A stretch of DNA of 39,372 nt from an uncultured Campylobacterales bacterium (GTDB lineage: Bacteria; Campylobacterota; Campylobacteria; Campylobacterales; Arcobacteraceae), in the NCBI GenBank assembly GCA_938084175.1, contig CALKDR010000073.1, forward strand, positions 1 to 39,372, read 5' to 3'. Both the position numbers and the translations under genes were made by a program. Below, one piece after another: positions 12,467 through 38,685 of the stretch (within the stretch, counting starts at the first letter, position 1; the number at the start of each line of letters is the position of its first letter). The notes beneath the pieces were generated by a model, which had not been told where the DNA came from, made no database searches, and saw only the letters and a program-made list of their open reading frames with translations.

Positions 12467-12483
12467 ATAGCAAAAAAATAGCA
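12467..12483 (-). promoter_or_regulatory. TGCTAT-N5-TGCTAT direct repeat upstream of the OmpA-family gene
   Basis: Two perfect TGCTAT half-sites (minus strand) with 11-bp period, N5 all T. The start codon is 34 bases away. The half-site nearest the gene runs into TATAAT (TGCTATAAT), so binding could overlap the promoter; an alternative TATTAT lies 12 bases downstream of the element. Same element as at 24135, 29109, 31418 and 36358. Confidence 0.55.
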
Positions 12484-21865: not shown

Positions 21866-23068
21866 TTATTTTTCAAGTCCTGAAACGATTTTATATGTAT
21901 CGTTTGCAATAACATACTCTTCATTTGTAGGAATAACAAAGATTCTACCAGCTGAACCATTTGTTGCAATATCTCTAGCTTCACCAGATCTTTTATTATT
22001 TTTAACTGGATCTACTACTAGTCCCATTCCATCAAGACCAGCACAAACTTTTTCTCTAATTAAAGCAGCATTTTCACCAATCCCACCTGTGAAACATAAT
22101 GCATCAACACCATCAAGAGCTGCCGCATAAGCACCAACATATTTTTTGATATTATAAGCAACCATATTTACAGCTAAATCACATCTTTTATCACCATTAG
22201 CTTGACCTTCTAATACTTCTCTAAGATCAGATGATTTTCCAGAAATACCTAAGATTCCTGATTTTTTATTCATGATATTTAAGGCTTCATCAATTGTAAT
22301 ATTTTCTTGACTCATCATATATTGTATTGCACCAGCACCAACATCACCAGCACGAGTTCCCATCATAAGACCTTGAACAGGAGTAAGTCCCATTGAAGTA
22401 TCAATACATTTACCATCTAATACAGCAGAAACAGAAGAACCATTTCCTAAGTGACATACAATAACTCTTGTATTATGTTTTTTATCTAACATATTTCTAG
22501 CTTCATTTGATACGAAATAATGAGATGTACCATGGAAACCATATTTTCTAATTCCATGCTTAGTATATTGTTCATGTGGTAATGCATACATATATGCATA
22601 ATCAGGCATAGTTTGGTGGAATGCTGTATCAAATACAGCAACATTTGGTTTACCAGGCATTAAATCTTGACAAATTTCCATCCCCATAATATTTGCAGGG
22701 TTATGTAATGGAGCTAATGGAATTAACTCTTTCATTTTATTAATTACTGCATCTGTAACAATAACAGAACCAGCAAAATCTTCACCACCATGAACAGCTC
22801 TATGTCCAATAGCATCAATAGCATCAATAGAATCGATAACTTTACCTTCACCTTCACATAATGTTTTTAAAACTAATTCAATTGCTTCTTTATGCGTTGG
22901 CATTGAAACTTCTAATTTAAGTTTTTGATCATTACCAAATTCGTGTTTAATAACTCCATCAATTCCAATTCTTTCACAAAGTCCTACAGCTAAAGTTTCT
23001 TGAGAAACTGGGTTCATTAACTGATACTTTAAAGATGAACTTCCTGCGTTTAAAATAAATACTAACAT
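21866..23068 (-). CDS. ackA: acetate kinase
   Basis: A 400-residue ASKHA-fold kinase that interconverts acetate + ATP and acetyl phosphate + ADP. Signatures: LVFILNAGSSSLKYQL at the N-terminus (phosphate-1 region), GHRAVHGGE with the active-site region His/Arg, HLGNGSSVSAV, GTRAGDVG (catalytic Arg) and CFTGGIGENAALIRE near the C-terminus. Length is normal. It is 16 bases after pta, forming the pta-ackA operon. With several acetate symporters next door and no acs in view, it may work in the acetate-activating direction as well as in overflow (inference). Confidence 0.97.
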   Translation of the reverse strand: MLVFILNAGSSSLKYQLMNPVSQETLAVGLCERIGIDGVIKHEFGNDQKLKLEVSMPTHKEAIELVLKTLCEGEGKVIDSIDAIDAIGHRAVHGGEDFAGSVIVTDAVINKMKELIPLAPLHNPANIMGMEICQDLMPGKPNVAVFDTAFHQTMPDYAYMYALPHEQYTKHGIRKYGFHGTSHYFVSNEARNMLDKKHNTRVIVCHLGNGSSVSAVLDGKCIDTSMGLTPVQGLMMGTRAGDVGAGAIQYMMSQENITIDEALNIMNKKSGILGISGKSSDLREVLEGQANGDKRCDLAVNMVAYNIKKYVGAYAAALDGVDALCFTGGIGENAALIREKVCAGLDGMGLVVDPVKNNKRSGEARDIATNGSAGRIFVIPTNEEYVIANDTYKIVSGLEK

Positions 23069-23084
23069 ATATTAATTCCTTAAA

Positions 23085-24080
23085 TTATTTAATTTGTGTT
23101 GCTGTAATAGCTACTAAGTTTGCGATGTCTTCTACTGAACAACCTCTTGAAAGATCATTTACAGGTTTTGCTAAACCTTGAACTACTGGTCCATGAGCTG
23201 CTGCTCCTGCAAATCTTTGAACAAGTTTATATCCAATATTTCCAGATTGTAAATCAGGGAATACTAATACATTAGCACGTCCAGCTACTTCAGAACCTGG
23301 TGCTTTTTTAGCTCCAATTGCTTCAACAATTGCAGCATCTGCTTGCATTTCACCATCAAATGAGAAATCAACATTTCTATCTTCTAATAAGTCAACTGCA
23401 TATTGAACTTTATCAACTAATGGATGCTTCGCACTTCCTTTTGTTGAGAATGATAACATTGCAACTCTAGGATCTAGTCCTACAACAGATGCAGCAGTTG
23501 CTGCAGTTGCACATGCAATATCAGCTAATTGCTCAGCATTTGGTTCAGGAATTACTGCACAATCTGCAAATAAAATTAAACCATTATCACCAAATTTACC
23601 ATCAGCTGTTTCCATAATAAATGCAGATGATACAGTGTTAATACCAGGTGCTGTTTTTATTACATGAATAGCTGCTTTTAATACATCAGCAGTTGGAGAG
23701 TTTGAACCTGCAACTAAACCATCGGCATGACCTAGTCTAACCATCATACAACCAAAAAATCTTGGCTCTGTAGTCATAATTTCTCTAGCTTCTTCTACAG
23801 TTAAACCTTTTTTCTTTCTAAGTTCAACTAACTCATTAACATAAGTGTCAATATCATCGAATTTTTTAGGATCAATTATTGTTGCCCCTTCAATGTTCGC
23901 ACCACATGCAATTGCATCTGCTTTAATTGTCTCTTCATTTCCAATTAAAACAACTTTCGCAGTTTTTTCTTCTAAAACTTGCTGTGTAGCTTGTAATACT
24001 CTTTCGTCTTCAGACTCAGGAAGAACGATAGTTCTAAGTTGTACTTTCGCTTTTTCTTTAATATTCTCAATTAAACCCAT
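23085..24080 (-). CDS. pta: phosphate acetyltransferase, short form
   Basis: A 331-residue Pta consisting of the catalytic PTA_PTB domain only, without the DRTGG/P-loop N-terminal regulatory half of E. coli Pta. It interconverts acetyl-CoA and acetyl phosphate. Motifs: IVLPESEDERVLQA at the start, GLVAGSNSPTADVLKAA in the middle and SGNIGYKLVQRF toward the end. AAAGGAT precedes the ATG. The promoter has a perfect -10 and a direct repeat shared with the symporter operons. Confidence 0.96.
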   Translation of the reverse strand: MGLIENIKEKAKVQLRTIVLPESEDERVLQATQQVLEEKTAKVVLIGNEETIKADAIACGANIEGATIIDPKKFDDIDTYVNELVELRKKKGLTVEEAREIMTTEPRFFGCMMVRLGHADGLVAGSNSPTADVLKAAIHVIKTAPGINTVSSAFIMETADGKFGDNGLILFADCAVIPEPNAEQLADIACATAATAASVVGLDPRVAMLSFSTKGSAKHPLVDKVQYAVDLLEDRNVDFSFDGEMQADAAIVEAIGAKKAPGSEVAGRANVLVFPDLQSGNIGYKLVQRFAGAAAHGPVVQGLAKPVNDLSRGCSVEDIANLVAITATQIK

Positions 24081-24118: not shown

Positions 24119-24151
24119 ATTATAGTAAAAAAACATAGCATAAAAATAGCA
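24119..24151 (-). promoter_or_regulatory. pta-ackA promoter with TGCTAT-N5-TGCTAT direct repeat
   Basis: The repeat occupies 24135-24151 (both half-sites perfect, 11-bp period). Exactly 10 bases downstream is TATAAT (24119-24124). The repeat takes the place of a -35 box, which is how PhoB-type activators sit at their promoters. Confidence 0.6.
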
Positions 24152-24300
24152 ATGCATTTAAATCTTCTTCATATATATTGTATATTTATTTTTTTAAAAA
24201 GTACATAATATATACACTTTATTTCTAAAATATTAAAGATGTGTCTTTTTGTAATAAAATATGGATTTAAAGGCTTTTAAAGAGTTTTTTGATTGGTTAA

Positions 24301-24330
24301 ATGTATAAAAGTTGTACATAATGTATAAAA
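24301..24330. repeat. 10-base direct repeat, 20-base period
   Basis: ATGTATAAAA occurs at 24301-24310 and 24321-24330, separated by GTTGTACATA. Two helical turns apart, upstream of pta and downstream of the exonuclease gene. Possible protein-binding pair; AT-rich, so chance is possible. Confidence 0.45.
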
Positions 24331-24391
24331 ATAAATAACAATTTTTTTCCTTAAGAAAAAGTAAAAAGCTTTAGATTGATTATATGTATAA

Positions 24392-25012
24392 TTAGTTGAT
24401 TTTTACTTTTGGAAAATTTGTTAGTTTTATAAATATTAGTGCGGTCATTATTGCATCATTATAAGCATCATGTTTTCCCATAACAGGAATTTGCAAGTCA
24501 TTCATAATTGTGTCAAATCTCAAATCTATGTTTGCTTGAGGAATTCTTTCTATTTTATAATCATAATATATAGCTGAAACTTCATGTTTTTTATTCGGCA
24601 AATGTATTCCAATTTTTGGTTTCAAATATTTATTAATCATTGCCATATCAAATTCTAAAAAATATCCCACTAGAGTTCTATTTCCAATAAAGTTTACAAA
24701 CTCATCTATTACTTCATTTATATCTTCTGCTTCTTCTAAATCACACTCTCTTATATGATGTATTTTTATAGCATCAGCTTGTAACTTTGTTTTGGGTTTT
24801 ACAAATTTTACAAATTTCTTACTTGAAATAATTGTGTTGTTTTTAATAATTACAGCACCTATAGAGATAATATCATCTATTTTTGTATCAAGTCCTGTTG
24901 TTTCACAATCAAAACAAACATATTCATCTTTATGCGGTTTATCAAAAAGAAAAGAATATCTTTCATCTTTTAAATTTTTTTTATTAAAATAGTTTGAAAT
25001 ACTTTTAAACAT
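24392..25012 (-). CDS. DEDDh-family 3'-5' exonuclease (DnaQ-like), copy 1
   Basis: A 206-residue exonuclease of the PolC/DnaQ epsilon-like family. ExoI is FDCETTGLD (~34-42; Asp and Glu metal ligands), ExoII FLEFDMAMI, and ExoIII HDAYNDAIMTA with the His-x4-Asp spacing of the DEDDh group. The N-terminal ~30 residues (NKKNLKDERYSFLFDKP) are a conserved leader shared with copy 2. It overlaps the DUF294 gene by 8 bases and is co-transcribed with it. Pairing of this exonuclease with a DUF294 protein near acetate symporters is known from other proteobacteria; the substrate (DNA, RNA or a small nucleotide) is not known. Confidence 0.85.
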   Translation of the reverse strand: MFKSISNYFNKKNLKDERYSFLFDKPHKDEYVCFDCETTGLDTKIDDIISIGAVIIKNNTIISSKKFVKFVKPKTKLQADAIKIHHIRECDLEEAEDINEVIDEFVNFIGNRTLVGYFLEFDMAMINKYLKPKIGIHLPNKKHEVSAIYYDYKIERIPQANIDLRFDTIMNDLQIPVMGKHDAYNDAIMTALIFIKLTNFPKVKIN

Positions 25013-26846
25013 AAGATAACTTAAAATGGTATTCTAATTTCTTTTTTAATTTATTGATAATTTTAAATGAATCTTTTAATAAATCTTTTTCCATTGTATT
25101 TAAATTTTCCGGATTAATATAATTATCAAGCTCTTCATTTTTATCAAGTTTTTCTAAATTTGATTTTAATTTTAAATTAGATAAAAAATTAAAAGCCATT
25201 ATCAACTCTTGAGCTGTTTCTTCTTCAAATACACCTTTTTTAGTTAATAACAAGATTCTTTTTGAAGTATTAGTCTTTAATATATGATGTTCTAAACATA
25301 AGGCCCTAATACTTTGTACAATTAAAAATATTCCACCTTTTTTAATATCAAGTTCATTTTTATGTTCACTATTCTTTGAATCAACAACAAATCCATCAAA
25401 GAATCCTAATGGAACATCAAAATTTGTAATTACTTTTGCAAAATTCGCATTAAATGTTTGTGAATTAGCACCAACTCTAAATAAGTACTCTTTTAAGTCA
25501 ATCAATAAATCCTTATTTCCTGAAACACAAGCTGCATCATAAAAAATTGCAGTATTCATTAAGTTTTCAGGGTTTGGCTCATTTACCCAAGAATATATCA
25601 AGTCTTTAAAATCTTTTGAACTTTTACACCAATAAGGATTAGAAAGCATAATATTTCCTTGACACCTTGGAAATCCAAAATCTACAAGTATTTTTGTAAA
25701 TTTCTTTGTAAAATCATGAATAATTTTAATATCTAAAGTACATTCATCAGAAATAATTAGTGCATTATCTTGGTCTGTTCTAAGTATTTGTTCTGATCTT
25801 CCCTCACTTCCCATAACAAGTAAACATGAATTTTCTAATAATTCTTTAGGTGCGAGAAGTTTGTACAATTTATCTAATAATTTTTTATTTAATTGGTTTA
25901 TTAATTTAGAAATAAACTCTATTTTTACGCCTTTTGCATTTAAAGATTTGATTATTTTTATAAAAGAATGAGATGCAACTTTTAACTCTTCAACTGTTTC
26001 AGCTTGAATTATCTCATTTGAAACAGAAAAAGTATTCGTTGCAAAAAATGATGAGAGTGAAATTTGATCTAAAATGCCTATAATTTCATTTTCATCATTT
26101 TTAACTACAACTCTTTTCATTCCAAATTTCGCCATTATTAGTTGTGCATTAAATAAGAAGTCGTTTTCATTAACATAAATCAGTCCTTTTGATGCAATCT
26201 TAATAACCTTATCATCAAAATCCATTCTATTTAAAATCACTTTTTCTCTAAAATCAGAATCTGTAACTATAAACATTTCGCCTAAGTTATCTTTTAAAAG
26301 TATTGTAGGAACTTTTTCTTTTTTTATAATATTAGCAGCTTCAAAAATTGATTTTTCTGAATCAATTATTACGGCTTTATGTATTTTTGCATCTTTTACT
26401 TTGGCAATCATTATATTTGCCATTTCTTTGTTTTTTTCATTATGAATATTTTTATTTAATTTTTGAGAAATAGTTTGAAAAAAGTAACTCTCTAATTCAA
26501 CATTTTGATGTAATGTTTTAATAAATAGTTCTTTTGGTAATGAATAGCATATAGTTTCTTGAGCAGTTTTAAAAGTGTTTTTTGAATAGTTTTCTATTAA
26601 AGATACAGGATCAAATATTTCATTTTTTGTAAAAACTGAAAATACTTCATCATCATTTCTTTCTTGTATAATTCCTTTTATAATAAAATAAAGATGACTA
26701 GGTTCTTTACCTTGTTTTTGAATAACTTCATCTTTTTTAAAATAGACAATATCAATATTTTCTGCAAATTTTCCTAATTGAACTTTATTTAAATGTTCAA
26801 ATGGATGTATTGATGTTAAGAATGTTTTTTGCTCTAATATACTCAT
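25005..26846 (-). CDS. cNMP-binding/CBS/DUF294 putative nucleotidyltransferase, copy 1
   Basis: A 613-residue soluble protein. Residues about 10-130: cyclic-nucleotide-binding-type domain (FAENIDIVYFKKDEVIQKQG, HLYFIIKG). About 150-275: two CBS motifs. About 300-470: DUF294 nucleotidyltransferase with GSEGRSEQ and TDQDNALI (near 340-355), the same metal-binding pattern as the GlnD uridylyltransferase. About 480-610: helical DUF294_C. Such proteins may modify a partner with a nucleotide; the target is unknown. Location beside acetate symporters and upstream of pta-ackA suggests control of acetate uptake or activation (inference). Confidence 0.88.
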   Translation of the reverse strand: MSILEQKTFLTSIHPFEHLNKVQLGKFAENIDIVYFKKDEVIQKQGKEPSHLYFIIKGIIQERNDDEVFSVFTKNEIFDPVSLIENYSKNTFKTAQETICYSLPKELFIKTLHQNVELESYFFQTISQKLNKNIHNEKNKEMANIMIAKVKDAKIHKAVIIDSEKSIFEAANIIKKEKVPTILLKDNLGEMFIVTDSDFREKVILNRMDFDDKVIKIASKGLIYVNENDFLFNAQLIMAKFGMKRVVVKNDENEIIGILDQISLSSFFATNTFSVSNEIIQAETVEELKVASHSFIKIIKSLNAKGVKIEFISKLINQLNKKLLDKLYKLLAPKELLENSCLLVMGSEGRSEQILRTDQDNALIISDECTLDIKIIHDFTKKFTKILVDFGFPRCQGNIMLSNPYWCKSSKDFKDLIYSWVNEPNPENLMNTAIFYDAACVSGNKDLLIDLKEYLFRVGANSQTFNANFAKVITNFDVPLGFFDGFVVDSKNSEHKNELDIKKGGIFLIVQSIRALCLEHHILKTNTSKRILLLTKKGVFEEETAQELIMAFNFLSNLKLKSNLEKLDKNEELDNYINPENLNTMEKDLLKDSFKIINKLKKKLEYHFKLSYV

Positions 26847-27022
26847 TAATTACTTCCCTTGATATTTGTATAAATACTTAATCTTATTATTATATTTTAT
26901 CAAAATAATAATAAAGAATTATTTGTAAATAAGCTTTATTTTTGTGAATTAATTAATATGTTTTTTTGTGCCAATTATCTTGAAAGGGATTTGAAAATTT
27001 ATAGAGTATGTTGTAAATAAGA

Positions 27023-27051
27023 AAAACTAAAGAGAAAATCTCTTTAGTTTT
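27023..27051 (-). terminator. terminator after actP copy 1
   Basis: A perfect 13-bp stem (27023-27035 with 27039-27051), a three-base loop and a T-rich continuation on the minus strand. Confidence 0.8.
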
Positions 27052-27057
27052 AAGATA

Positions 27058-28707
27058 CTAGTGATCAACAGCTCCTGCTGAACCAATACCTGTGTTTGCT
27101 CTAACATTTTGAGCTCTAAACATTTCTTTTTCATCTTTCCCTCTTTGAGAGTTATCTGTTTTAGAGAAGAACCAAATTGAAACGAATGCCAAAGTTACAG
27201 AGAACAATGCTGGATGTTTATAAGGGAAAATAGCTTCCGCATTTCCTAAAATAGAAACCCAAACAATTGGCCCAATGATTACAAGAGTTACTGCCGTAAT
27301 TAGTCCAATAAATCCACCAATAAATGCACCTCTAGTTGTTAATCCTCTCCAGTAAATAGATAGGAATAAAATTGGGAAGTTAGCAGATGCAGCAATACCA
27401 AATGCTAAACCAACCATATAAGCAATATTTTGTTCCTCAAATGCAATACCAAGTGTAACACCAACAATTCCTACGATTACAACTGTAACTTTAGAAATTT
27501 TAACAACTTTTTCGTCTGTTGCATTTGGGTTGATAACATTTGCATAGATATCATGAGAAATTGCAGATGCACCTGCCAGTGTAAGTCCTGAAACAACAGC
27601 TAAAATAGTTGCAAATGCAACAGCTGAAATAAATCCTAAGAATGCATTTCCACCTAACATATGTGATAAGTGAATAGAAGCCATATTATTTCCACCAAAT
27701 AATTTGCCATCAACAAAGTACTGAGAACCTTCTGGTGAGTTTAAGAATGCAATTGCACCAAAACCAACAATTGTAATAATAATCCAAAAATAACCTACAA
27801 AACCAGTTGCATAAACAACAGATTTTCTTGCTTCCTTAGCATTACCAACAGTAAAGAATCTCATAAGAACATGAGGTAAACCAGCTGTTCCTAACATTAA
27901 AGCCATACCTAAAGAAATAGCAGAAATAGGGTCAGAAATAAATCCACCTGGTGCTAGAATTGATTCACCTGCACTATGATTCTCAACTGCTTTAACAGCT
28001 AAAGATTCAAAAGAAAAATCAAAGTGATATAAAACCATAACAGCCATGAAAGATACACCTGTTAAAAGTAAACAAGCTTTAATAATTTGTACCCAAGTAG
28101 TTGCAAGCATACCACCAAATGTAACATATACAATCATTAATGCACCAACCATAAATACAGCATATTCATATTCCATACCAAATAAAACTTGGATTAGTTT
28201 ACCTGCTCCAACCATTTGAGCAATTAAATATAAAATAACAACAGCAATAGAACCAAATGCAGCAAGTGTTCTAATCTCTTTTTGACCAAGTCTATAAGCA
28301 GCAATATCAGCAAAAGTAAATTTACCTAAGTTTCTTAATTTTTCAGCCATAAAGAATAAAATAATTGGCCAACCAACTAAGAATGAAACAGCATAGATAA
28401 CTCCATCATAACCTTTTAAGTAAATAAGACCAGATACACCAAGAAAAGCAGCAGCTGACATATAATCTCCAGCAATTGCTAAACCATTTTGAAAACCAGT
28501 AATTCCCCCACCAGCAGTATAGAAATCACTTGCTGATTTAGTTTTACTAGCAGCCCAGTAGGTAATACCAAGTGTACCAGCAATAAAAATTAAGAACATA
28601 ATAATCGCAGGAATATTAAGGTCTCTTTGAACCGCTTCAAATTCAGCATCACCTGCAGCAAACCCTGTTAGTGCAAAAATTGTAATAAGTGTTAATATTT
28701 TAAACAT
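27058..28707 (-). CDS. actP: cation/acetate symporter ActP, copy 1
   Basis: A 549-residue sodium:solute symporter (SSS) with a leader-like first helix ([19 protein letters not shown]) and about 13 transmembrane segments, including [31 protein letters not shown] (sodium-site helix), [15 protein letters not shown] and [16 protein letters not shown]. These are hallmarks of the acetate permease ActP/YjcG. The start overlaps the stop of the DUF485 gene by one base, the usual yjcH-actP pairing. The protein ends in AVDH, the same tail as the other two symporters here. By eye about four of five residues agree with copy 2. Confidence 0.93.
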
Positions 28708-29021
28708 TAAATTAAATCCTTTACATCTTCTTTAATTTCATTAGTTAAGTCTTCATACTCACCATTTGCTCTTTTTACATAAATAAGAGTTGTAATAAAA
28801 CTAATAACTAAGATTGCTAAAGCAATTGGAAAAGCTATTGTAGTAACTCCGTCACCAATTTTTGTTGCTAATACTTCTTTGTTAAATGCAATTACCATAA
28901 TAAATGTATAAAACATTACTAATACAAAAACACCTAATTTAATACTAAAACTATTTCTTTTAGATACTAGTTCTTGATACTTTGGATTAGATTCAATTCT
29001 GTCAACTAATTCCTTGTTCAT
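28707..29021 (-). CDS. DUF485 small inner membrane protein (YjcH-like), copy 1
   Basis: A 104-residue protein with two transmembrane helices (about 28-48 and 60-83) and charged ends, matching DUF485/YjcH, the small companion of ActP. Start RBS AAAGGA is good. It overlaps actP by one base (coupled translation). Its exact role in transport is not established. Closely similar to copy 2 at 31042-31356. Confidence 0.9.
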
Positions 29022-29093
29022 TCTGCTTCCTTTGTAATATAATAAAAACTAATATAAGCTTGTATTATATATTTTTTTGATTCTACATAAGCT

Positions 29094-29125
29094 ATCTTAA
29101 TGATTTTAATAGCATTAAAATAGCA
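29094..29125 (-). promoter_or_regulatory. TGCTAT-N5-TGCTAT direct repeat and putative -10, DUF485-actP operon 1
   Basis: The repeat occupies 29109-29125 (both half-sites perfect, 11-bp period). A weak -10-like TAAGAT (29094-29099) lies nine bases downstream. The gene starts 87 bases below the repeat. Confidence 0.5.
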
Positions 29126-29347
29126 AATTAGAAAAATCATGAAGTATTATACATAGAAAAAATAATAAAATGAGACAAAAACTAATTCAAATATGTAAAG
29201 ATTATGTCAAGAATGTAGATTAGTAACATAAAATAACATTATTAATTAGATTTTTTAGTTATTAAATTTTATTTTTATTTAAGATTACTATAGTTTTATG
29301 AATATAAAAGATTTATGAGTAGAAAAGTAATGATGTTTTATTTAAAT

Positions 29348-29375
29348 GTTACTAAAGAGTAGACTCTTTAGTAAC
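29348..29375 (-). terminator. terminator after actP copy 2
   Basis: GTTACTAAAGAGT (29348-29360) is exactly complementary to ACTCTTTAGTAAC (29363-29375); in practice a 12-bp stem with a small loop. Confidence 0.7.
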
Positions 29376-29389
29376 TAATTATTGTTGAT

Positions 29390-31042
29390 CTAGTGATCAA
29401 CTGCACCATCAGCACCGAAACCAGTTTCAGCTCTAACTTTTTGTGCTTCAAAAGCATGGATTTCATCTTTTGCTCTTTGAGATTTATCAGTAATTGAGAA
29501 GAACCAAATACTAACAAATGCTACAGTAACAGAGAATAGGGCAGGATGTTTATATGGGAATATAGGAGATTCATTTCCTAAAACAGAAACCCAAACAACA
29601 GGACCTAAAACAACAAGAACAACAGCTGTTAATAAACCTAAGAATCCACCAATAAATGCACCTCTTGTCGTTAATTTTGACCAATAAATTGATAAAAATA
29701 AAATAGGGAAGTTAGCAGATGCAGCAATGGCAAAAGCAAGTCCAACCATAAATGCGATATTTTGATGTTCAAAAGCAATACCTAAAGCAACACCAACAAT
29801 ACCAATAATTATTACTGATCTTTTAGAAACTTTCATTTCCATTTCTTCATTAGCTTTTCCTTTACAAATAACATTTGCATAAATATCGTGAGATATCGCT
29901 GAAGCACCTGCAAGTGTCAATCCAGAAACAACAGCTAAAATAGTAGCAAATGCAACAGCTGAAATAAATCCTAAGAAAATATCTCCACCAACATAGTGAG
30001 ATAAGTGAATAGCTGCCATGTTATTTCCACCAAAAAGTTTTCCATCTACAAAGTACTGAGAACCTTCTGGTGAATTTAAGAAAACAATTGCACCAAGACC
30101 AATAACAGCAATTACCAAATAGAAGTAACCAATAAAACCAGTTGCATAAACAACAGATTTTCTAGCTTCTTTAGCATTACCAACTGTAAAGAATCTCATA
30201 AGAACGTGAGGTAATCCTGCCGTTCCTAACATTAATGCAAGTCCTAATGAAATTGCAGAAATAGGATCAGAAATAAATCCACCTGGAGCCATAATATCTT
30301 GACCTAAAGTATGCGTTTCAACAGCTTTACTTGCAAGTGATGCAAAATTAAAATCAAAATGTTGTAATATTAAGAATGCCATAAATGTAACACCAGATAA
30401 TAATAAAACAGCTTTAATAATTTGTACCCAAGTAGTTGCAAGCATACCACCAAAAGTAACGTAAATAATCATCATAACACCAACAAGCATTACAGCATAT
30501 TCATATTCTAAACCAAATAATACTTGAATTAGTTTTCCAGAACCAACCATTTGAGCAATTAAATATAAAGTAACAACTGATAAAGAACCAAATGCTGCTA
30601 ATACTCTAATTTCTTTTTGCCCTAATCTAAATGCAGCAATATCGGCAAAAGTAAATTTACCTAAGTTTCTTAATTTTTCAGCCATCAAGAATAAAATTAC
30701 AGGCCAACCAACTAAAAAACCAACTGCATAAACAAGTCCATCATAACCTTTTAAATAAACTAATCCAGAAAGACCTAAGAAAGAAGCTGCTGACATATAA
30801 TCACCAGCAATTGCCATACCATTTTGGAAACCAGTTATTCCACCACCTGCTGTATAAAAATCACTTGCAGATTTTGTTTTACTAGCTGCCCAATAAGTAA
30901 CACCAAGTGTTGCGCCAATAAAAATAAAGAACATTACAATTGCTGAAATGTTAATATCTCTTTGTACTGCTTCAAAAGTTGCATCACCAGCAGCAAAAGC
31001 AGTAATAACAAAAGTTGAAATAAGTGCTAAAATTCTAAACAT
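29390..31042 (-). CDS. actP: cation/acetate symporter ActP, copy 2
   Basis: A 550-residue SSS-family symporter closely similar to copy 1 along its whole length, with the same [26 protein letters not shown] and [18 protein letters not shown] segments. The differences cluster in the region about 228-255 and in the loop about 405-412 ([11 protein letters not shown] versus NPNATDEKV). It ends in AVDH. One-base overlap with its DUF485 partner. The two copies look like a tandem duplication of the two-gene operon with its promoter element; they may differ in affinity or expression. Confidence 0.93.
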
Positions 31043-31356
31043 TATAATGCATCCTTTATATCTTCTTTTATTTCATTTGTTAAATCTTCAAACTCACCAT
31101 TTGCTCGTCTTACATAAATTAGTGTTGTAATAAAACTAATAATAATGATAGCTGCTGCTATTGGGAAAGCTACAGTCATAACTCCATCACCTAATTTTGT
31201 AGCTAATAATGTAGGTTCAAATGCAATAGTTAAAATATATGCATAAAACATAACTAATACAAAAATTGCAAGTTTAATTGAAAAACTTGATCTTTTTTTA
31301 ATTAGCTTTTGATATTTTGGGTTGTCTTTGATTCGTTGTACTAACTCATCGTTCAT
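31042..31356 (-). CDS. DUF485 small inner membrane protein (YjcH-like), copy 2
   Basis: A 104-residue, two-helix membrane protein, equal in length to copy 1 and largely the same in sequence (shared [32 protein letters not shown]). AGGAGG precedes the ATG. One-base overlap with actP copy 2. Confidence 0.9.
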
Positions 31357-31417
31357 TTTTGCCTCCTAAAACTTTTTTAATACAGATTAATAGTATATTT
31401 GCTTAAATAATACAAAC

Positions 31418-31434
31418 ATAGCAATAGTCTAGCA
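31418..31434 (-). promoter_or_regulatory. TGCTAG-N5-TGCTAT direct repeat, DUF485-actP operon 2
   Basis: Same 11-bp-period element with one mismatch in the distal half-site. A TATACT (31392-31397) lies 20 bases downstream; a TATTAT lies only five bases away. The promoter geometry is therefore less clear than for pta or the third symporter. Confidence 0.45.
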
Positions 31435-31547
31435 TTTTTTTAAAAATGAGAGTAATTATACTTGTATAAAATTATGTAAAAGATGTATTTAATTATTTTA
31501 AGTAAAATTTAAGTTTAAATGATTAACTATGTAACTTTTAGAAGCGA

Positions 31548-31584
31548 TATAAATACGAATTATTTTGAATAATTCGTATTTATA
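31548..31584 (-). terminator. terminator after exonuclease copy 2
   Basis: A perfect 17-bp stem (31548-31564 with 31568-31584) and a three-base loop, six bases after the gene. Confidence 0.8.
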
Positions 31585-31589
31585 ATAAA

Positions 31590-32222
31590 TTAGCTTGTAT
31601 AGAATGTTGTTTTTGCAGGTGTTAACTTTCTTAGTTTTAAAAACATCATAGATGTCATAATGGCATCATTTAGTGCATCATGTTTTCCTAATCTTGGTAT
31701 ATCTAATTCTTTCATTATCGTATCAAATTTTAAATCAATAAATTCATATTCACTTGTTTTCTTTTTTGATTTAAAAAACATAGATGAAACTTCAATACTT
31801 TCATTAGGGAGTTTTATTCCAATAAACTTTTTTGTATATTTAGAAATCATTGCAATATCAAATTTTATATAATATCCAACAATTGGACGAGATCCTATGA
31901 AGTCTAATAATTTAAATATAGCTTCTTTTGAAGAAACTGCATTTTCCAAGTCAATAGGACGAATATGATGAATTTTAATTGATTCTGCACTAATATTTAT
32001 AGAAGGTTTTACAAAAATATTAAATGTTTCCCTCATTATTACTTTATTATCTTGAATATGAACAGCACCAATTGAAAGTATTTCATCTTTTCTTGGACTT
32101 AATCCTGTAGTTTCACAATCCAAACAGATATATTCATTTGGTTTTGGTTCATCAAATAAAAATTCATATTTTTTATTTGTTAATTTTTTTTTATTCCAAT
32201 TTTTAAAAAAATCATCAAACAT
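31590..32222 (-). CDS. DEDDh-family 3'-5' exonuclease (DnaQ-like), copy 2
   Basis: A 210-residue paralogue of the exonuclease at 24392-25012. ExoI LDCETTGLSP, ExoII YIKFDIAMIS, ExoIII HDALNDAIMTS (His-x4-Asp) are intact, as is the leader NKKKLTNKKYEFLFDEP. Its start overlaps the stop of the DUF294 gene by one base. Clearly more diverged from its paralogue than the two ActP copies are from each other, pointing to an older duplication. Confidence 0.85.
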   Translation of the reverse strand: MFDDFFKNWNKKKLTNKKYEFLFDEPKPNEYICLDCETTGLSPRKDEILSIGAVHIQDNKVIMRETFNIFVKPSINISAESIKIHHIRPIDLENAVSSKEAIFKLLDFIGSRPIVGYYIKFDIAMISKYTKKFIGIKLPNESIEVSSMFFKSKKKTSEYEFIDLKFDTIMKELDIPRLGKHDALNDAIMTSMMFLKLRKLTPAKTTFYTS

Positions 32223-34039
32223 TACGATATCTTGTCTGTTTTAAATGAATAAGCTATAAACTTTTTAAAATCTATAACAATTTTAAAAGAATCTTTTAGT
32301 AAGTCTCTTTCTATTTTTCCTAAATTATGAGTATCAATTTCATTATTTATTTCTTTATTCTCAAGAAGTTTATTAAGTTGAGATTTAAGTCTTAAAGTAT
32401 TTACAACATCAAATGCTTCAAGTAATTCAGCAGCTTTTTCTTTTTCTAAAATTTTTCTTTGTTCTAAAATTTTTATTCTTTTTACTGTTGTTGTTTCTCT
32501 GATTTTTTCTCTTAATGCTAAAGATCTGATTCCTTGAACAATTGGAAAAACAGCAGTTTTTTTAATATCAATATAATGAACTTTTGTCATAAAATTTGCA
32601 ACAGTACTTGGTGTATCAAAAGCTAGTGTAGCTTTTGCAAAATATGCCATAAACACATCTTTATCATGAAGTTTATTAAATAGATCATCTTTTAGATTAA
32701 TCAAAAGTTCTTTATCCCCTGCAACTGCAAAAGAATCAAAAAATATTGCTAAATCCATATAGTTTTGCATATCAGGAGCATCAATCCATCTTTTTGTTTC
32801 TTCTTTATATTCACTTACTGTTTTACACCAAAAAGGATTTGAAACCATTATATTACCTTGGCAAGGTGGGTAGCCAAAATCAATAAGGTGTTCAGTTAAT
32901 TTTTGCATATAAGGTCTGTATAAATTAACATCAATGCCATCTTTTATAACTAATGCATTATCTTGATCTGTTTTAATAATTTGTTCATTTCTTCCTTCAC
33001 TTCCCATAACTATTAAACAAGAATTTTTTCTAAGCTCTTTTGGAACAACAAGTTGAAAAAGTTTTTTATATACTTTTGTATTCAATTCTCCAATTAAATT
33101 TGAAATATGGTTTACTTTTACACCTTTTGCTTGTAAACTTTTTATAATATTAATTAAATCATTACTTGAACTTTTTAATTCTTCAATTGTTTTTGATTTT
33201 TTGATTTTTGTGTCAACTACATAAGTATTATTTGCAAAATGAGATAAAACATCAATTTGTTCTAATACTCCAATCATTTCACCTTGATTATTAGTAACAC
33301 CAATTCTTTTTATATTCCTTTTAATTAAAAGAGTTAATGCCTCAAATAAATAATCATCATTACATACAGTCATTAATGGAAAAATTGCAATATCTCCTAC
33401 TGGAATATCCAAGTTTCTACCTTCAAGTAGTACTTTTACTTTTAATAGTGAATCTGTAATAATTCCATAAGTATTATCTTCTTTTTTTACAATAATCGAA
33501 GATGTTTTATAGGTCATAGATTTTTCTATTGCATAAATTAATTTTGCATCTTCATCAACTATACATGCTTCATGAATAATTGTATCATCAACCTTTGCAA
33601 TCATAAAAGATGATAGTTCTGATGTATATTCTTTATCTTTTAATGTTTGAATTTTATTTACAAGATTTTTTAAGAAGAAATCTTTAAATTTTTCATTCTC
33701 TTCTATTAATTTTAAAAATGTTTTCTTTTCTAATTCGTAACAAATTAAATCTTCATGTACTCTAAAAGTATTTTTTGTTTTATTATAAATTAGTGAATTT
33801 GCGTCAAATGAATCTTCTTGATGATAATCCATAACAACTTCATCATCATGATATTCATATACCGAACCTTTTATAATAATAAAGAAATGATCAGATATTT
33901 TACTAGGACAGATTAATGTAGAGTCTTTTGGATAATAAGCTATATCCATATGTTTGATACAATTGTTAATTTGATTTTCAGTTAAAACTTCGAAGGGGTG
34001 TATATTTGAAAGAAAGTCTTCTTGATCTCGTAGGCTCAT
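32222..34039 (-). CDS. cNMP-binding/CBS/DUF294 putative nucleotidyltransferase, copy 2
   Basis: A 605-residue paralogue of the protein at 25005-26846 with the same order: N-terminal cNMP-binding-like domain (MDIAYYPKDSTL, HFFIIIKGSVYEY), paired CBS motifs (~150-275), nucleotidyltransferase core GSEGRNEQ and TDQDNALV (near 340-360), and a helical C-terminal domain. Catalytic-type residues are kept. Overall similarity to copy 1 is moderate. It follows the DUF4212-symporter operon behind a terminator, so it probably has its own promoter in the 96-base gap. Confidence 0.87.
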   Translation of the reverse strand: MSLRDQEDFLSNIHPFEVLTENQINNCIKHMDIAYYPKDSTLICPSKISDHFFIIIKGSVYEYHDDEVVMDYHQEDSFDANSLIYNKTKNTFRVHEDLICYELEKKTFLKLIEENEKFKDFFLKNLVNKIQTLKDKEYTSELSSFMIAKVDDTIIHEACIVDEDAKLIYAIEKSMTYKTSSIIVKKEDNTYGIITDSLLKVKVLLEGRNLDIPVGDIAIFPLMTVCNDDYLFEALTLLIKRNIKRIGVTNNQGEMIGVLEQIDVLSHFANNTYVVDTKIKKSKTIEELKSSSNDLINIIKSLQAKGVKVNHISNLIGELNTKVYKKLFQLVVPKELRKNSCLIVMGSEGRNEQIIKTDQDNALVIKDGIDVNLYRPYMQKLTEHLIDFGYPPCQGNIMVSNPFWCKTVSEYKEETKRWIDAPDMQNYMDLAIFFDSFAVAGDKELLINLKDDLFNKLHDKDVFMAYFAKATLAFDTPSTVANFMTKVHYIDIKKTAVFPIVQGIRSLALREKIRETTTVKRIKILEQRKILEKEKAAELLEAFDVVNTLRLKSQLNKLLENKEINNEIDTHNLGKIERDLLKDSFKIVIDFKKFIAYSFKTDKIS

Positions 34040-34097
34040 TAAGTTTCCTTTTATTAGTATTTTTATATATTATTAGATTTTAACATAAAAAAATACT

Positions 34098-34123
34098 AAA
34101 AGTATACCCGAAGGTATACTTTT
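34098..34123. terminator. strong bidirectional-type terminator after the third symporter
   Basis: An 11-bp stem AAAAGTATACC/GGTATACTTTT closed by a CGAA tetraloop, with A- and T-runs on the sides; partial pairing extends further with one bulge. Confidence 0.8.
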
Positions 34124-34135
34124 TAGTAAGTCTAA

Positions 34136-36016
34136 CTAGTGATCAACAGCCTCACCAGCTCCAGAAGGAATTCTGATTGACTCTACAAGATCTTGAATCT
34201 CTTGTGGAGGCTCAGGAGTCATTCTAGAAACAATGAATGCAACAACTAAGTGAAGTATAGTACCAATAGTACCGAAACTCGCTGGTGCAATTCCTAAGAA
34301 GTAATCCTCAGGTTTTCCGCCACCCCAGATGAAGTAGAACGCATAACCAACAGTTGCGATAAGACCAGTTAAGATACCAGCAATAGCACCCTCTTTGTTC
34401 ATTCTCTTATCAAATACACCAAGGATAATTGTTGGGAAGAATGCAGCTGCAGCAATACCAAATGCTAAAGCAACAACTTGTGCAACGAATCCAGGAGGGT
34501 TAATCCCTAAGTAACCAGCAACACAAATAGCAGCTACTGCTGAGATTCTTGCATAAGTTAACTCTGTTTTTTCATTTAATGTTGATTTACCAGTTTCTTT
34601 GTCTTTGTAAACAACTTGTCCCATAAGGTCATGTGAAATTGCTGATGCAATAACAAGTAATAACCCTGCCGCTGTAGATAATGCTGCTGCTAATCCACCA
34701 GCTGCAATAAACGCAATTACCCAGTTAGGTAAATTTGCAATTTCAGGATTTGCAAGTACCATGATATCTCTATCAACGTATAACTCATTTGCAATACCGT
34801 TACCTTTAGCAAGTTCTGCAGCATTCGCAGCAGCTTTACCATTAGTTACAAGTCTATGTCCATCTTCGCCTCTTTTATCTCCATCAAATGCAGGTTTCCC
34901 TTTAGCACCTTCGAAAGCTTTACCAGTAGCATATTGAATTTTTCCATCGCCATTTCTATCATGCCATGCAATTAATCCACCATTTTCCCAAGTTTTAAAC
35001 CAGTTCCCATTGTTACCTTCAATCTCACCATTTACAAACGCTTTATATTCAGTGTTTTGTAAATTTTTAATTAAGTTAATTCTTGAGAATGCAGCAACTG
35101 AAGAAATAGTTGTATACATAATAGCAATAAAAATTAAAGCCCATCCAGCAGATATTCTAGCATCTTTAACAGTTGGAACTGTAAAGAATCTAACAATAAC
35201 GTGAGGAAGTCCAGCAGTACCAAGCATTAATGCTGTAGTAAGCATAAATAAGTTCCATAAGTTACCTGGTTGAGTATAGTTATTAAACCCAAGATCAGAA
35301 ATAGATTGATCAAGTGCATGTAACAGATACGTTCCTTCAGGAATTACAGAAACTCCAGAATCAAATGCAAATGTAGTTGTACCAAAAATACCTAATTGAG
35401 GTATAAATGTATCAGTAACTTGTAATGATAAGAAGATTGCAGGAATCATGTATGCAAAAATCATAACAACATATTGAGCAACTTGTGTATAAGTAATACC
35501 TTTCATTCCACCTAAAACAGAATAGAAGAATACAACACCCATACCAATTAATACACCAGTATTAACATCAACTTGTAAGAATCTAGAGAAAACAATTCCA
35601 ACACCTCTCATTTGTCCAGCAACATATGTGAACGAAACGAAAATAACTGAAACAACTGCAACTAATCTAGCAGTATCAGAATAATATCTGTCACCAACAA
35701 AATCAGGAACTGTAAACTTACCAAACTTTCTTAAGTAAGGAGCAAGTAACATAGCAAGTAGAACATATCCACCAGTCCAACCCATTAAGAATGCACCACC
35801 ATCAGAACCCTTAAACGAAATAAGACCTGCTAATGAAATAAATGAAGCTGCTGACATCCAGTCTGCTGCTGTTGCCATACCATTTGCAACTGGATGAACT
35901 CCACCACCTGCAACATAGAAATCTTTAGTTGAACCAGCTTTTGCCCATAAAGCAATACCGATATAAATTGCGAATGAAACACCTACAAATAGGTAAATTA
36001 ATGATTGTAATTCCAT
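34136..36016 (-). CDS. sodium:solute symporter, VC_2705-like, with EF-hand-like insert
   Basis: A 626-residue SSS-family protein related to but distinct from ActP. The core helices are present ([51 protein letters not shown]). A hydrophilic insert of roughly 110 residues (about 312-428) lies between two membrane helices and contains DRNGDGKIQY near 350, a good EF-hand/calcium-loop pattern. The pairing with a DUF4212 small subunit 12 bases upstream assigns it to the VC_2705-type symporters, generally annotated as acetate or organic acid carriers. The C-terminus ends AVDH as in both ActP proteins. Substrate is inferred from context. Confidence 0.85.
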   Translation of the reverse strand: MELQSLIYLFVGVSFAIYIGIALWAKAGSTKDFYVAGGGVHPVANGMATAADWMSAASFISLAGLISFKGSDGGAFLMGWTGGYVLLAMLLAPYLRKFGKFTVPDFVGDRYYSDTARLVAVVSVIFVSFTYVAGQMRGVGIVFSRFLQVDVNTGVLIGMGVVFFYSVLGGMKGITYTQVAQYVVMIFAYMIPAIFLSLQVTDTFIPQLGIFGTTTFAFDSGVSVIPEGTYLLHALDQSISDLGFNNYTQPGNLWNLFMLTTALMLGTAGLPHVIVRFFTVPTVKDARISAGWALIFIAIMYTTISSVAAFSRINLIKNLQNTEYKAFVNGEIEGNNGNWFKTWENGGLIAWHDRNGDGKIQYATGKAFEGAKGKPAFDGDKRGEDGHRLVTNGKAAANAAELAKGNGIANELYVDRDIMVLANPEIANLPNWVIAFIAAGGLAAALSTAAGLLLVIASAISHDLMGQVVYKDKETGKSTLNEKTELTYARISAVAAICVAGYLGINPPGFVAQVVALAFGIAAAAFFPTIILGVFDKRMNKEGAIAGILTGLIATVGYAFYFIWGGGKPEDYFLGIAPASFGTIGTILHLVVAFIVSRMTPEPPQEIQDLVESIRIPSGAGEAVDH

Positions 36017-36028
36017 ATTCTCTTTCTC

Positions 36029-36322
36029 CTATTCGTGAACGCCGTATTTCTCGTCAATTCCTGTCATTACTTTTACGTAAACAAAAATTAATACTACAAA
36101 TACATAAATTGCACCTTGTTGTGCAAACCAAAACCCTAATTTAACACCACTAATCTCAATAGCGTTAAGTTCGTTAATAAATAAAATCCCACATCCGAAA
36201 GAAACAACGAACCAAACTACTAAAAGTTTAAGAATCATTGAAATATTTTCTTTCCAGTATGCTTGTGCTTTTTCTGGACTCATCCTGCTCTCCTTATTAT
36301 TTTTATTAAATAAATTATTCAT
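36029..36322 (-). CDS. DUF4212 symporter small subunit
   Basis: A 97-residue protein with two transmembrane helices (about 30-53 and 64-86), and the KAQAYWKENISMILKLLVVWFV start with FGCGIL and FWFAQQGAIYVFVVLIFVYV that define the DUF4212 (sodium/substrate symporter small subunit) family. It is the expected partner of the symporter gene 12 bases downstream. Inferred start ATG 36322; an in-frame ATG about 13 codons further in (MSPEKAQ) has AGGAGAGCAGG before it and is an attractive alternative. Confidence 0.85.
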   Translation of the reverse strand: MNNLFNKNNKESRMSPEKAQAYWKENISMILKLLVVWFVVSFGCGILFINELNAIEISGVKLGFWFAQQGAIYVFVVLIFVYVKVMTGIDEKYGVHE

Positions 36323-36341
36323 TTAATAATTTAACATTGAA

Positions 36342-36374
36342 AGTATAATAAGTATAGATAGCAAAAAGATAGCA
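36342..36374 (-). promoter_or_regulatory. DUF4212-symporter promoter with TGCTAT-N5-TGCTAT direct repeat
   Basis: The repeat is at 36358-36374 (both half-sites perfect, 11-bp period). Exactly 10 bases downstream is TATACT (36342-36347), the same geometry as at pta. Confidence 0.6.
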
Positions 36375-36437
36375 ATTGAAGTTTTTTTTGAAAAGTTTTT
36401 TTTGAATCTAGCATTAACATAGTAAATAATCTATGCA

Positions 36438-36458: not shown

Positions 36459-37121
36459 TTAAACAGAATAATATCTATCAATTTTATAACCTAAACCTCT
36501 AATATTTTTGATAAAATCTTCTTTTAATGCTTTTTTCAATCGTGAGATCTCAGCTCTTATAGTTGGGTTGTCAATATTCTCTCCATCCCAGATGTCAATT
36601 CTAAATCTTTCGAAGTCTACTATCATATTAATGTTAAGGGCTAATATATGAATAATCTCTAATTGTTTCTTTGTTAGGTTTTGTGGTTCACTATTAAAAT
36701 ACAAAGTTTTGGTATCTTTAGCATAAGAATAATTTTCAGAAAATCTTATATGAGAAGTGTTACTTTGATCTTTTTTTAGTAATAGATTTATTTTTATTCC
36801 TAGTTCTTCTAAATGAAATGGTTTTTTAATATACTCTCTACAACCAAGGTCGTAAGCTTTACTAATATCTTCTATATCAATTAAAGCTGAAATGTATATA
36901 GTTGGTATATACATTTTTTTTGTATTTAGCTCAGCTAAAATTTCAAAACCATCTTTAGTAGGAACATTTATATCCATTATTAATAGATCAAATGATGTAT
37001 TAACGCTGTCAATAACTTCTTGTCCATCTGTAAAACTTTCAACCATATGTCCAATACCTCTTAAATACTCACATATCGAGTTATTTAACATTAATTCATC
37101 TTCAAGCAGTAATATTTTCAT
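36459..37121 (-). CDS. OmpR/PhoB-family response regulator
   Basis: A 220-residue two-domain regulator. The receiver (1-120) has the acidic pocket E7-D8, phospho-acceptor D50 in LIMDINVP, the switch Ser in YISAL and Lys in YIKKPF. The C-terminal winged helix (about 130-218; FNSEPQNLTKKQLEIIHILA, IRAEISRLKKAL, RGLGYKI) is of the OmpR/PhoB type that binds direct repeats in one-turn phase. It overlaps the histidine kinase gene by 20 bases. It lies just upstream of the DUF4212-symporter operon and is the best local candidate to bind the TGCTAT repeats; this is inference. Confidence 0.9.
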   Translation of the reverse strand: MKILLLEDELMLNNSICEYLRGIGHMVESFTDGQEVIDSVNTSFDLLIMDINVPTKDGFEILAELNTKKMYIPTIYISALIDIEDISKAYDLGCREYIKKPFHLEELGIKINLLLKKDQSNTSHIRFSENYSYAKDTKTLYFNSEPQNLTKKQLEIIHILALNINMIVDFERFRIDIWDGENIDNPTIRAEISRLKKALKEDFIKNIRGLGYKIDRYYSV

Positions 37122-38685
37122 TTATTTTAAACCTATAAGTAAATTTTGTTTCTTTTTCATTTGATTCCAATTTTATTATAACTGAATTCTTGTCACAAAT
37201 TTCTTTTACAATTCTCAATCCAAGACCAAATCCACCTCTTGCAGAATCTTCTCTATAAAAATCATCGAATATTTTATTCTGATATTCAATTCTTTTTGAA
37301 TGAGTAGTAACTGAGAATTCAACTTCATCATCATTAATATAATCAAGTCTTACAAAAATTGGTGATTTTGCATATGAGTATTTTATTGCATTTGATAAGT
37401 TATTATCAATTACTCTTTGAAATTCTGTTAAATTGAATTTTATATAAATATCTTCTTGGATATTAGAAACAAAATATAAAGAGTTAGATTTTGCAATTTC
37501 AGCAAAAAAATCTAATCTATGAAAAAGTATAGTAGATAAATTTAAATACTCTTTTTTATACACAACTCTATCTTTTTTTATAAGATATGATAAGTCATCA
37601 TATATATATTGAATTATTTTTGCACCTGATTCTATATGCGTAATATATTTATTCTCAGGTACTTTCATTTTTAATAAATCAATATTTGTTTGTATTATAG
37701 ATAAAGGAGTATTGATTTCATGTACAGAATTTTTTATAAATGTTTTTTGTGATTCAATTAGTTTCGTAAGTTCTTTTGTCTTTTCATCCACTTTATATTC
37801 TAGATTTTTATTCAAATCTTCTAACATATGTGATTTTAGCTTTATATTATTCATGGCATCTGTTGCATAATTTGCAATAACTTTAAATTCCCCAAATATA
37901 ATTCTATTTTGGTTTAGTGGTTCATCATTCTTTTGTGATTCTTTAAAGTATCTTCCAATCTCTTTAACATCATTTAGTATAAGAATAGTTGCATTTTTAT
38001 AAATAAATATAGAATAAAGTACTAGCATAATAGTTAGTGATATGATTTGTAGTGTGAAGTCTGATATTTTTTGATTATATTCATCTTTTTTTGTAAGTAC
38101 AAGTTTGTTGATTTTATCTAAATATACTCCTTTACCAATTGACCAGTTCCATTGATCATATGAATTTGAATATGAAGTTTTCTTTGCATTTTCACTGATA
38201 TCAGGTTTATACCAAACATAATCAACATAGCCACCATTACTTTCTTTTGATATTATAATTAGCTCTTCTATGACTTTTTTTCCATTAACATCTTTTAAAG
38301 CTATTAGATTTTCTCCAACTTTTGTTTTTTCTATTGGATGATAGACAGATTTTCCATTAAAATCATAAATAAATAGATATTCATTAATATTATCATTTAC
38401 TCTTAGTTTTTCTAAAGCCAGAAGAATTTCTTCTTGTATTCGCTTTGTAGGTTTAATATCTTTATATTTTTCATGGTAATAAGAAATAAATTTGATTGCG
38501 GAATTTACATCATTTTTTATTAAGTCTTTTTGATTATTTGTATAATCAGTTTTAAGTGTAAAAATTTTCTCTTGTAATTCATCATGTGCATTGTTTATTA
38601 TTATAAAAGTAAAAAATGATATTAATACTATAATAAATAAAATACTGTAGAGAACTAAATGGTATAGACTTTTTGCTTTTATCAT
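37102..38685 (-). CDS. membrane histidine kinase with Cache sensor domain
   Basis: A 527-residue sensor kinase: transmembrane helix 1 (about 11-31), a periplasmic Cache-type domain (about 35-205; FIYDFNGKSVYHPIEKTKVG and NWSIGKGVYLDKI are typical of calcium-channel/chemotaxis Cache modules), helix 2 (about 208-230), a coiled linker, HisKA with H322 in NSVHEINTPLS, and a HATPase with N-box DNNLSNAIKY and G-box GGFGLGLRIV. The H-box has Glu-Ile-Asn-Thr-Pro after His, as usual. Cache domains bind small organic acids and amino acids; acetate or another short carboxylate would fit the neighbourhood but is not shown. First gene of the HK-RR operon. Confidence 0.9.
   Translation of the reverse strand: MIKAKSLYHLVLYSILFIIVLISFFTFIIINNAHDELQEKIFTLKTDYTNNQKDLIKNDVNSAIKFISYYHEKYKDIKPTKRIQEEILLALEKLRVNDNINEYLFIYDFNGKSVYHPIEKTKVGENLIALKDVNGKKVIEELIIISKESNGGYVDYVWYKPDISENAKKTSYSNSYDQWNWSIGKGVYLDKINKLVLTKKDEYNQKISDFTLQIISLTIMLVLYSIFIYKNATILILNDVKEIGRYFKESQKNDEPLNQNRIIFGEFKVIANYATDAMNNIKLKSHMLEDLNKNLEYKVDEKTKELTKLIESQKTFIKNSVHEINTPLSIIQTNIDLLKMKVPENKYITHIESGAKIIQYIYDDLSYLIKKDRVVYKKEYLNLSTILFHRLDFFAEIAKSNSLYFVSNIQEDIYIKFNLTEFQRVIDNNLSNAIKYSYAKSPIFVRLDYINDDEVEFSVTTHSKRIEYQNKIFDDFYREDSARGGFGLGLRIVKEICDKNSVIIKLESNEKETKFTYRFKINENITA

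Follow-up and report, generated by a model that had tools for sequence, protein, structure and literature searches.

The 39,372-nucleotide stretch analysed here (hereafter the window; contig CALKDR010000073.1 of assembly GCA_938084175.1, from an uncultured Campylobacterales bacterium of the Arcobacteraceae) carries a short direct repeat in front of its acetate operons. The half-site is TGCTAY and the full site TGCTAY-N5-TGCTAY, i.e. two half-sites at a period of 11 base pairs (bp). This DNA element is real across the family and probably marks an acetate-centred two-component regulon. In our judgement the repeat is likely to serve as operator for a two-component system of acetate or related C2/C3 carboxylates formed by the sensor histidine kinase HK1 and the response regulator RR1, whose genes lie beside one of the operons.

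A first-pass annotation of the window had proposed TGCTAT-N5-TGCTAT as a repeat common to the acetate operons. The conserved repeat and its period were confirmed, whereas the half-site had to be corrected to TGCTAY. The five copies it had listed, four exact and one with a single mismatch, were all found in place, each upstream of a gene and on the strand of that gene (minus in every case). They precede the DUF4212-symporter operon (36358-36374, exact), DUF485-actP pair 2 (31418-31434, one mismatch), DUF485-actP pair 1 (29109-29125, exact), pta-ackA (24135-24151, exact) and an OmpA-family gene discussed separately below. The numbers of exact copies expected from base composition are 0.009 for the window and 0.38 for the genome; the source genome (1.74 Mb, 85% complete) contains seven, four of which fall within these 39 kb (binomial 9e-6). 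Matches with up to two mismatches number eight in the window against a shuffle mean of 6.84, and 31 of 100 shuffles reach eight; the signal therefore resides only in the exact and near-exact copies, and the two-mismatch matches were dropped as evidence. In promoters controlled by PhoB-type activators, a direct repeat of 11-bp period replaces the -35 element and the -10 element lies about 10 bp downstream. The same layout had been claimed for two promoters of the window and is supported at both: a -10 hexamer starts exactly 10 bp downstream of the site, TATACT at DUF4212 (36342-36347, minus) and TATAAT at pta (24119-24124, minus), with the repeat at the -35 position.

The genes downstream of these sites are all on the minus strand. 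The DUF4212 small subunit (36029-36322) is followed by a VC_2705-family sodium/solute symporter (34136-36016; TIGR03648 above its cut-off). Pair 2 comprises a DUF485 protein (31042-31356) and an ActP-type symporter (29390-31042). Pair 1 comprises a DUF485-type protein (28707-29021), assigned by its position and order relative to DUF485 queries in related loci, and a second ActP-type symporter (27058-28707). Phosphate acetyltransferase (pta, 23085-24080) and acetate kinase (ackA, 21866-23068) form the last operon. Two pairs of DUF294 (cNMP/CBS) and RNase T-type exonuclease genes (24392-26846 and 31590-34039) flank the actP genes and are kept in many relatives.

The conservation of the element was followed in 39 RR1 loci and the window, in which TGCTAY-N5-TGCTAY was sought within 250 bases upstream of genes. 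The orthologous promoters do carry the motif, most regularly at DUF4212, where all 30 upstream regions (window included) have an exact site. Of the DUF485 promoters in the block, the first has an exact site in 12 of 30 cases and one with at most one mismatch in 25, the second in 12 and 17 of 22, and the pta promoters of the named loci and the window in 3 and 4 of 5. An N5 site is present in 57 of 87 target upstream regions vs 1 of 276 for ten further genes in these loci, many of these comparison regions being coding DNA. When spacings from 0 to 19 were compared in the target regions, 5 stood alone apart from a single instance of 16, and the 100 shuffles yielded none. The +10 hexamer of the DUF4212 promoters reads TATACT in 20 cases, TATAAT in nine and TACAAT in one, and each of the 30 promoters has G and C intact in both half-sites, in a window of 29% G+C. 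At the DUF485-actP promoters, a preferred -10 offset was sought and not found. A weaker second site (TACTAT-N5-TGCTAG, two mismatches; 36408-36424, minus) lies 50 bp upstream of the main DUF4212 site, and nine of 29 other loci (L093-L099, L103, L125) have a site with one or two mismatches at this distance. In the pair 2 promoter, TATTAT at a distance of 11 bp (31407-31412, minus) may be a third half-site; it lies within an overlapping two-mismatch match (31407-31423).

Many RR1 loci share the order HK1-RR1-DUF4212-symporter-DUF294-exonuclease-DUF485-actP in synteny. The DUF4212 query has no match in L111-L113, L119 and L121, where the identity of the symporter is only 41-43%; in L122-L124 RR1 is present and the block absent. 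Autoregulation of HK1-RR1 is unsupported, a site being found in 1 of 38 HK1 and 0 of 40 RR1 upstream regions. Some relatives possess a second, diverged ackA-like gene (57-60% identical) upstream of pta (L225:5550-6743, L254:7230-8426).

Genome-wide placement was examined in ten genomes (G000, G001, G003, G009, G011, G020, G033, G034, G076 and G087), with open reading frames (ORFs) of at least 80 residues. Outside ORFs lie 98 of the 104 exact TGCTAY sites, vs about 10% intergenic DNA in the window, and each genome has only 6 to 22 such sites. As a control, 20 of 86 N6 matches were sampled (10 of 11 from G034 and 10 of 16 from G011), none of which was outside an ORF. The motif is thus not as frequent inside genes as in promoters. 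Raw genome counts were rejected as evidence: over one set of ten genomes, N5 gave 122 matches and N6 86 (N4 and reversed N5, 4 each), G022, G058 and G086 contributing 50 sites to that raw count without gene annotation. The period of N6, 12 bp, is codon-compatible and the sample lay entirely inside ORFs, so that placement and not count carries the argument. A strong -10 begins at +10 in 33% of the 104 sites, vs 0-13% for each remaining offset in the range 0 to 21. A gene starts within 500 bases downstream on the same strand for 76 sites, 20 have only a divergent gene and eight have neither. Sites precede pta and DUF4212 in all ten genomes and DUF485 in seven on its own strand, plus one pointing away. 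Exact TGCTAT sites average 4.43 per genome in 67 family genomes with an RR1 match of at least 70% identity, 2.08 in 24 family genomes without one and 0.56 in 59 genomes of other families (reversed control, 0.49), these means being raw and uncorrected for kinship or genome size.

The exact sites extend well beyond acetate genes. Recurrent neighbours are an amino-acid ABC binding protein and a lactate permease family (five of ten genomes each, both named from matches below curated cut-offs), soxC (four, one on the other strand), aldehyde dehydrogenase (three) and fumarate reductase cytochrome b (two). The site points away from nuoA in three genomes, from oorD in two and, in five, from a small protein of about 79-101 residues with no Pfam match (L174, L175). 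In G009 a site adjoins an AceTr-type acetate transporter. Many other sites lie upstream of genes met in one genome only, and the exact sites at L216:4765 and L219:5405, without a same-strand downstream gene start, are kept in G000 and in G003 of the same genus. With 32 of the 104 sites at the core genes, i.e. pta (11), DUF4212 (10) or DUF485 (11), the regulon is either wider than acetate or shared.

RR1 (36459-37121, minus) is a response regulator of the OmpR/PhoB type, with Response_reg and Trans_reg_C both above Pfam cut-offs. Its closest named relatives are from Poseidonibacter, Arcobacter, Halarcobacter, Malaciobacter and Aliarcobacter, and others are from uncultured Campylobacterota; an Arcobacteraceae origin of the window can be deduced from these relatives. 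The linkage between RR1-like genes and sites recurs in further loci: the order is HK1-RR1-site-DUF485-actP in L126, HK1-RR1-site-DUF485 in L256 (the contig ends before actP) and HK-RR1-site-acs in L139, and in L124 a site and acs lie about 5 kb before HK1-RR1. In distant genomes, the RR1-like regulators (50-52% identity) match RR1 best among three paralogues; in these genomes a site adjoins HK1-RR1, upstream of DUF485 in G055 and of acs in L139, in G019 sites precede DUF485-actP and acs about 20 kb from RR1, and in G014 and G021 they precede DUF485 on contigs other than that of RR1. G034, assembled as one contig, carries sites at pta and directly behind RR1 and has no paralogue above about 214 bits among the matches listed. 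The neighbouring OmpR-type gene had been named as the obvious candidate for the regulator. Linkage in several lineages makes RR1 the best candidate and the probable binder of the sites; the identification is probable without being proven, since the GCTAT core is common to a family of paralogous regulators.

HK1 (37102-38685, minus) combines a Cache sensor (dCache_2/sCache_2) with HisKA and HATPase_c domains. Among solved Cache domains its sensor part best matches 5g4y (E 6.4e-18), which we take to be the sensor of PscD. The residue numbers in the extracts of PMC5062169 fit the HK1-5g4y alignment, and these extracts give glycolate, acetate, propionate and pyruvate as ligands of the PscD sensor, with a dissociation constant of 31 uM for acetate. 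By the residues named there, the window HK1 keeps five of seven ligand contacts, including all four contacts to the carboxylate. Across 46 HK1-like sequences, Tyr90 is retained in 41, Tyr143 in 43, Trp145 in 42 and Lys156 in 41, while Trp92 is replaced by Phe in 42 and Phe126 by Ile in 32 (PMC5062169, extracts). An acetate signal is plausible from the homology of the kinase Cache domain and from the target genes.

A mechanism can be proposed on these grounds. In the periplasm, the Cache domain of HK1 would detect a small carboxylate, and the kinase would phosphorylate RR1. Bound head to tail on the pair of TGCTAY half-sites with their 11-bp period, dimers of RR1 would bring RNA polymerase to the promoter. 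In front of the DUF4212-symporter and pta, RR1 would occupy the -35 position, with the -10 following after 10 bp, and at the actP promoters it would act from a variable distance. The predicted targets are uptake (actP, probably the DUF4212 symporter and elsewhere other acetate transporters) and activation (pta-ackA; acs in other genomes), with a looser circle of lactate, amino-acid and respiratory genes.

Several observations weigh against an operator of HK1-RR1. The small share of sites at the core genes, given above, is one, and 28 of the 104 sites lack a same-strand gene start within 500 bases downstream. No site with up to two mismatches was found in five of 30 first and four of 22 second DUF485 promoters, and L115 carries HK1-RR1 and pta, yet its pta has no site. 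Loci with RR1-like regulators of 55-56% (L127, L138) or 70-72% identity (L122, L123) have no exact site in the locus DNA examined. Conversely, G083 retains target sites though its RR1 ORF is only 148 residues long (L244:8851-9297), through a broken gene or a sequencing error; in the RR1-loss co-occurrence test this ORF was short but present, and the contig of G007 ended within the operon. On the sensor side, His103 of PscD is His in just six of the 46 HK1-like sequences (PMC5062169, extracts), and Arcobacter butzleri is reported, in the parts of the sources available, not or mostly not to use acetate (PMC2147049, PMC9927503). In a metagenome-assembled genome of the Nautiliaceae (L148:7950-11628), an RR2/RR1-like regulator lies in a row between acs and an AceTr acetate transporter, with an exact site before acs, another after the transporter and a one-mismatch site before the transporter. 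The regulator scores 204 bits (49% identity) against RR2 and 177 bits against RR1, hence is closer to RR2, and in the tree its branch falls outside the set formed by RR1, RR2 and RR3. Together with the 32 sites at core genes, this lowers confidence in RR1 as the regulator and raises it in a role for a paralogue.

According to this alternative, the sites are bound mainly by RR2 or RR3, partners of FIST-domain kinases, or by several paralogues of overlapping specificity, and the acetate genes integrate several signals. RR2 and RR3 are 56% and 50% identical to RR1, sit with FIST-domain kinases and have recognition helices nearly identical to that of RR1. In 12 of 12 loci, the RR2 promoter facing the divergent aldehyde dehydrogenase-DUF779 genes contains GCTAT four times with an 11-bp period, 18 to 20 of the 20 core letters matching when the offset of best fit is taken. 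In each of them a -10-like hexamer made of TA, three bases and T comes next, in the same register as at DUF4212. Exact TGCTAY sites occur in this promoter in three of ten genomes; with the shared helix, this implies that some sites may not belong to RR1. The two kinds of half-site are nevertheless distinguishable. An A follows the core (+5) in 48 of 48 RR2-type half-sites, which read GCTATA, vs 16% of 118 RR1-type half-sites, and a T precedes it (-1) in 35% of the RR2-type half-sites, T at -1 having been a selection criterion for the RR1 type. Furthermore, G034 retains its sites without RR2 among the matches listed, and in the syntenic loci it is RR1, not RR2, that adjoins the targets. This alternative as a whole is unlikely. 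The FIST-domain kinase and RR2 genes divergent from aldehyde dehydrogenase-DUF779 (L217:9274-14033, L221:7898-12625 and L215, on contig C25 of G000) delineate a second predicted regulon. A broader reading, somewhat short of an even chance in our estimation, is that RR1, RR2 and RR3 form a paralogous set with a common 11-bp GCTAT code, separated by one flanking base each (T before for RR1, A after for RR2). This set would wire one C2/energy network throughout the Arcobacteraceae (aldehyde oxidation, acetate uptake and activation, lactate and amino-acid uptake, parts of respiration), with a code reaching the acs and acetate transporter genes of the Nautiliaceae.

An operator for a repressor unrelated to the OmpR type would suit the proximity of the site to the -10, where a repressor could also act. 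The direct repeats of 11 bp, the location at the -35 and the OmpR-type genes that accompany sites in several lineages speak instead for an OmpR-type activator, and a repressor is highly improbable; RR1 would thus be expected to activate rather than repress.

The fifth copy in the window (12467-12483, minus, exact) had been included by the first-pass annotation as lying before the OmpA-family gene, and is not upheld as a member of the regulon. Its second half overlaps an extended -10 (TGCTATAAT), and nine other promoters from seven genomes of the genus lack the repeat and conserve a TATAAT-like hexamer after a T-rich run (G005 and G006 were excluded, the correct gene start being unreadable from the stretch). 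That the motif as a whole is merely a sigma-70 promoter feature of Campylobacterota, a T-rich signal with an extended -10 and no operator, would account for this copy and fits the C. jejuni promoters without a conserved -35 described in extracts of PMC4456614, but it is disfavoured to the point of being barely credible by the few exact sites per genome, by the invariant G and C of the half-sites at DUF4212 despite the low G+C content and by the separate -10 located 10 bp further on in those promoters.

Neither the motif nor the system was found among the titles and abstract openings of the best full-text matches listed. The following likenesses and differences are drawn from the available parts of the sources cited. 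The functional counterpart of HK1-RR1 is the CrbS/CrbR (MxtR/ErdR) acetate switch of Vibrio and Pseudomonas, also a two-component system, which controls acs and actP (PMC5715377). However, CrbS is an SLC5-STAC hybrid kinase whereas HK1 has Cache, HisKA and HATPase_c domains and no SSF domain; CrbR is LuxR-type whereas RR1 contains only Response_reg and Trans_reg_C; and the CrbR site is an imperfect inverted repeat (the ACTU motif), in contrast with the direct repeat described here. MctS/MctR of Rhizobium resembles the present system in its Cache2-domain kinase controlling the monocarboxylate permease MctP (PMC9100948) and differs in its targets and its bacteria; HK1 scores 107.6 bits against the MctS model (cut-off 700), with a match over the sensor part only. 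PceS/PceP of Sulfurospirillum includes another OmpR-type regulator of Campylobacterota, with CTATA repeated at gaps of six and overlapping the -35 or lying about 50 bp further upstream. It differs in its consensus CTATW-N17-CTATW, its tetrachloroethene regulon and its kinase with seven transmembrane helices, PceP having been compared by description only (PMC7755780). If the assignment to HK1-RR1 is correct, Campylobacterota possess an acetate control system built from parts unlike those of the CrbS/R switch, and RR1 and RR2 offer a clear case of paralogous response regulators separating their targets despite nearly the same recognition helix. The predicted operator, regulator, kinase and target list are directly testable. 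With respect to PhoB-type activators, the half-site, the regulon and the probable signal differ, binding by RR1 being a prediction. The element would work in the manner of PhoB-type activation and, though outside the CrbS/R system, would fulfil the same role as that switch.

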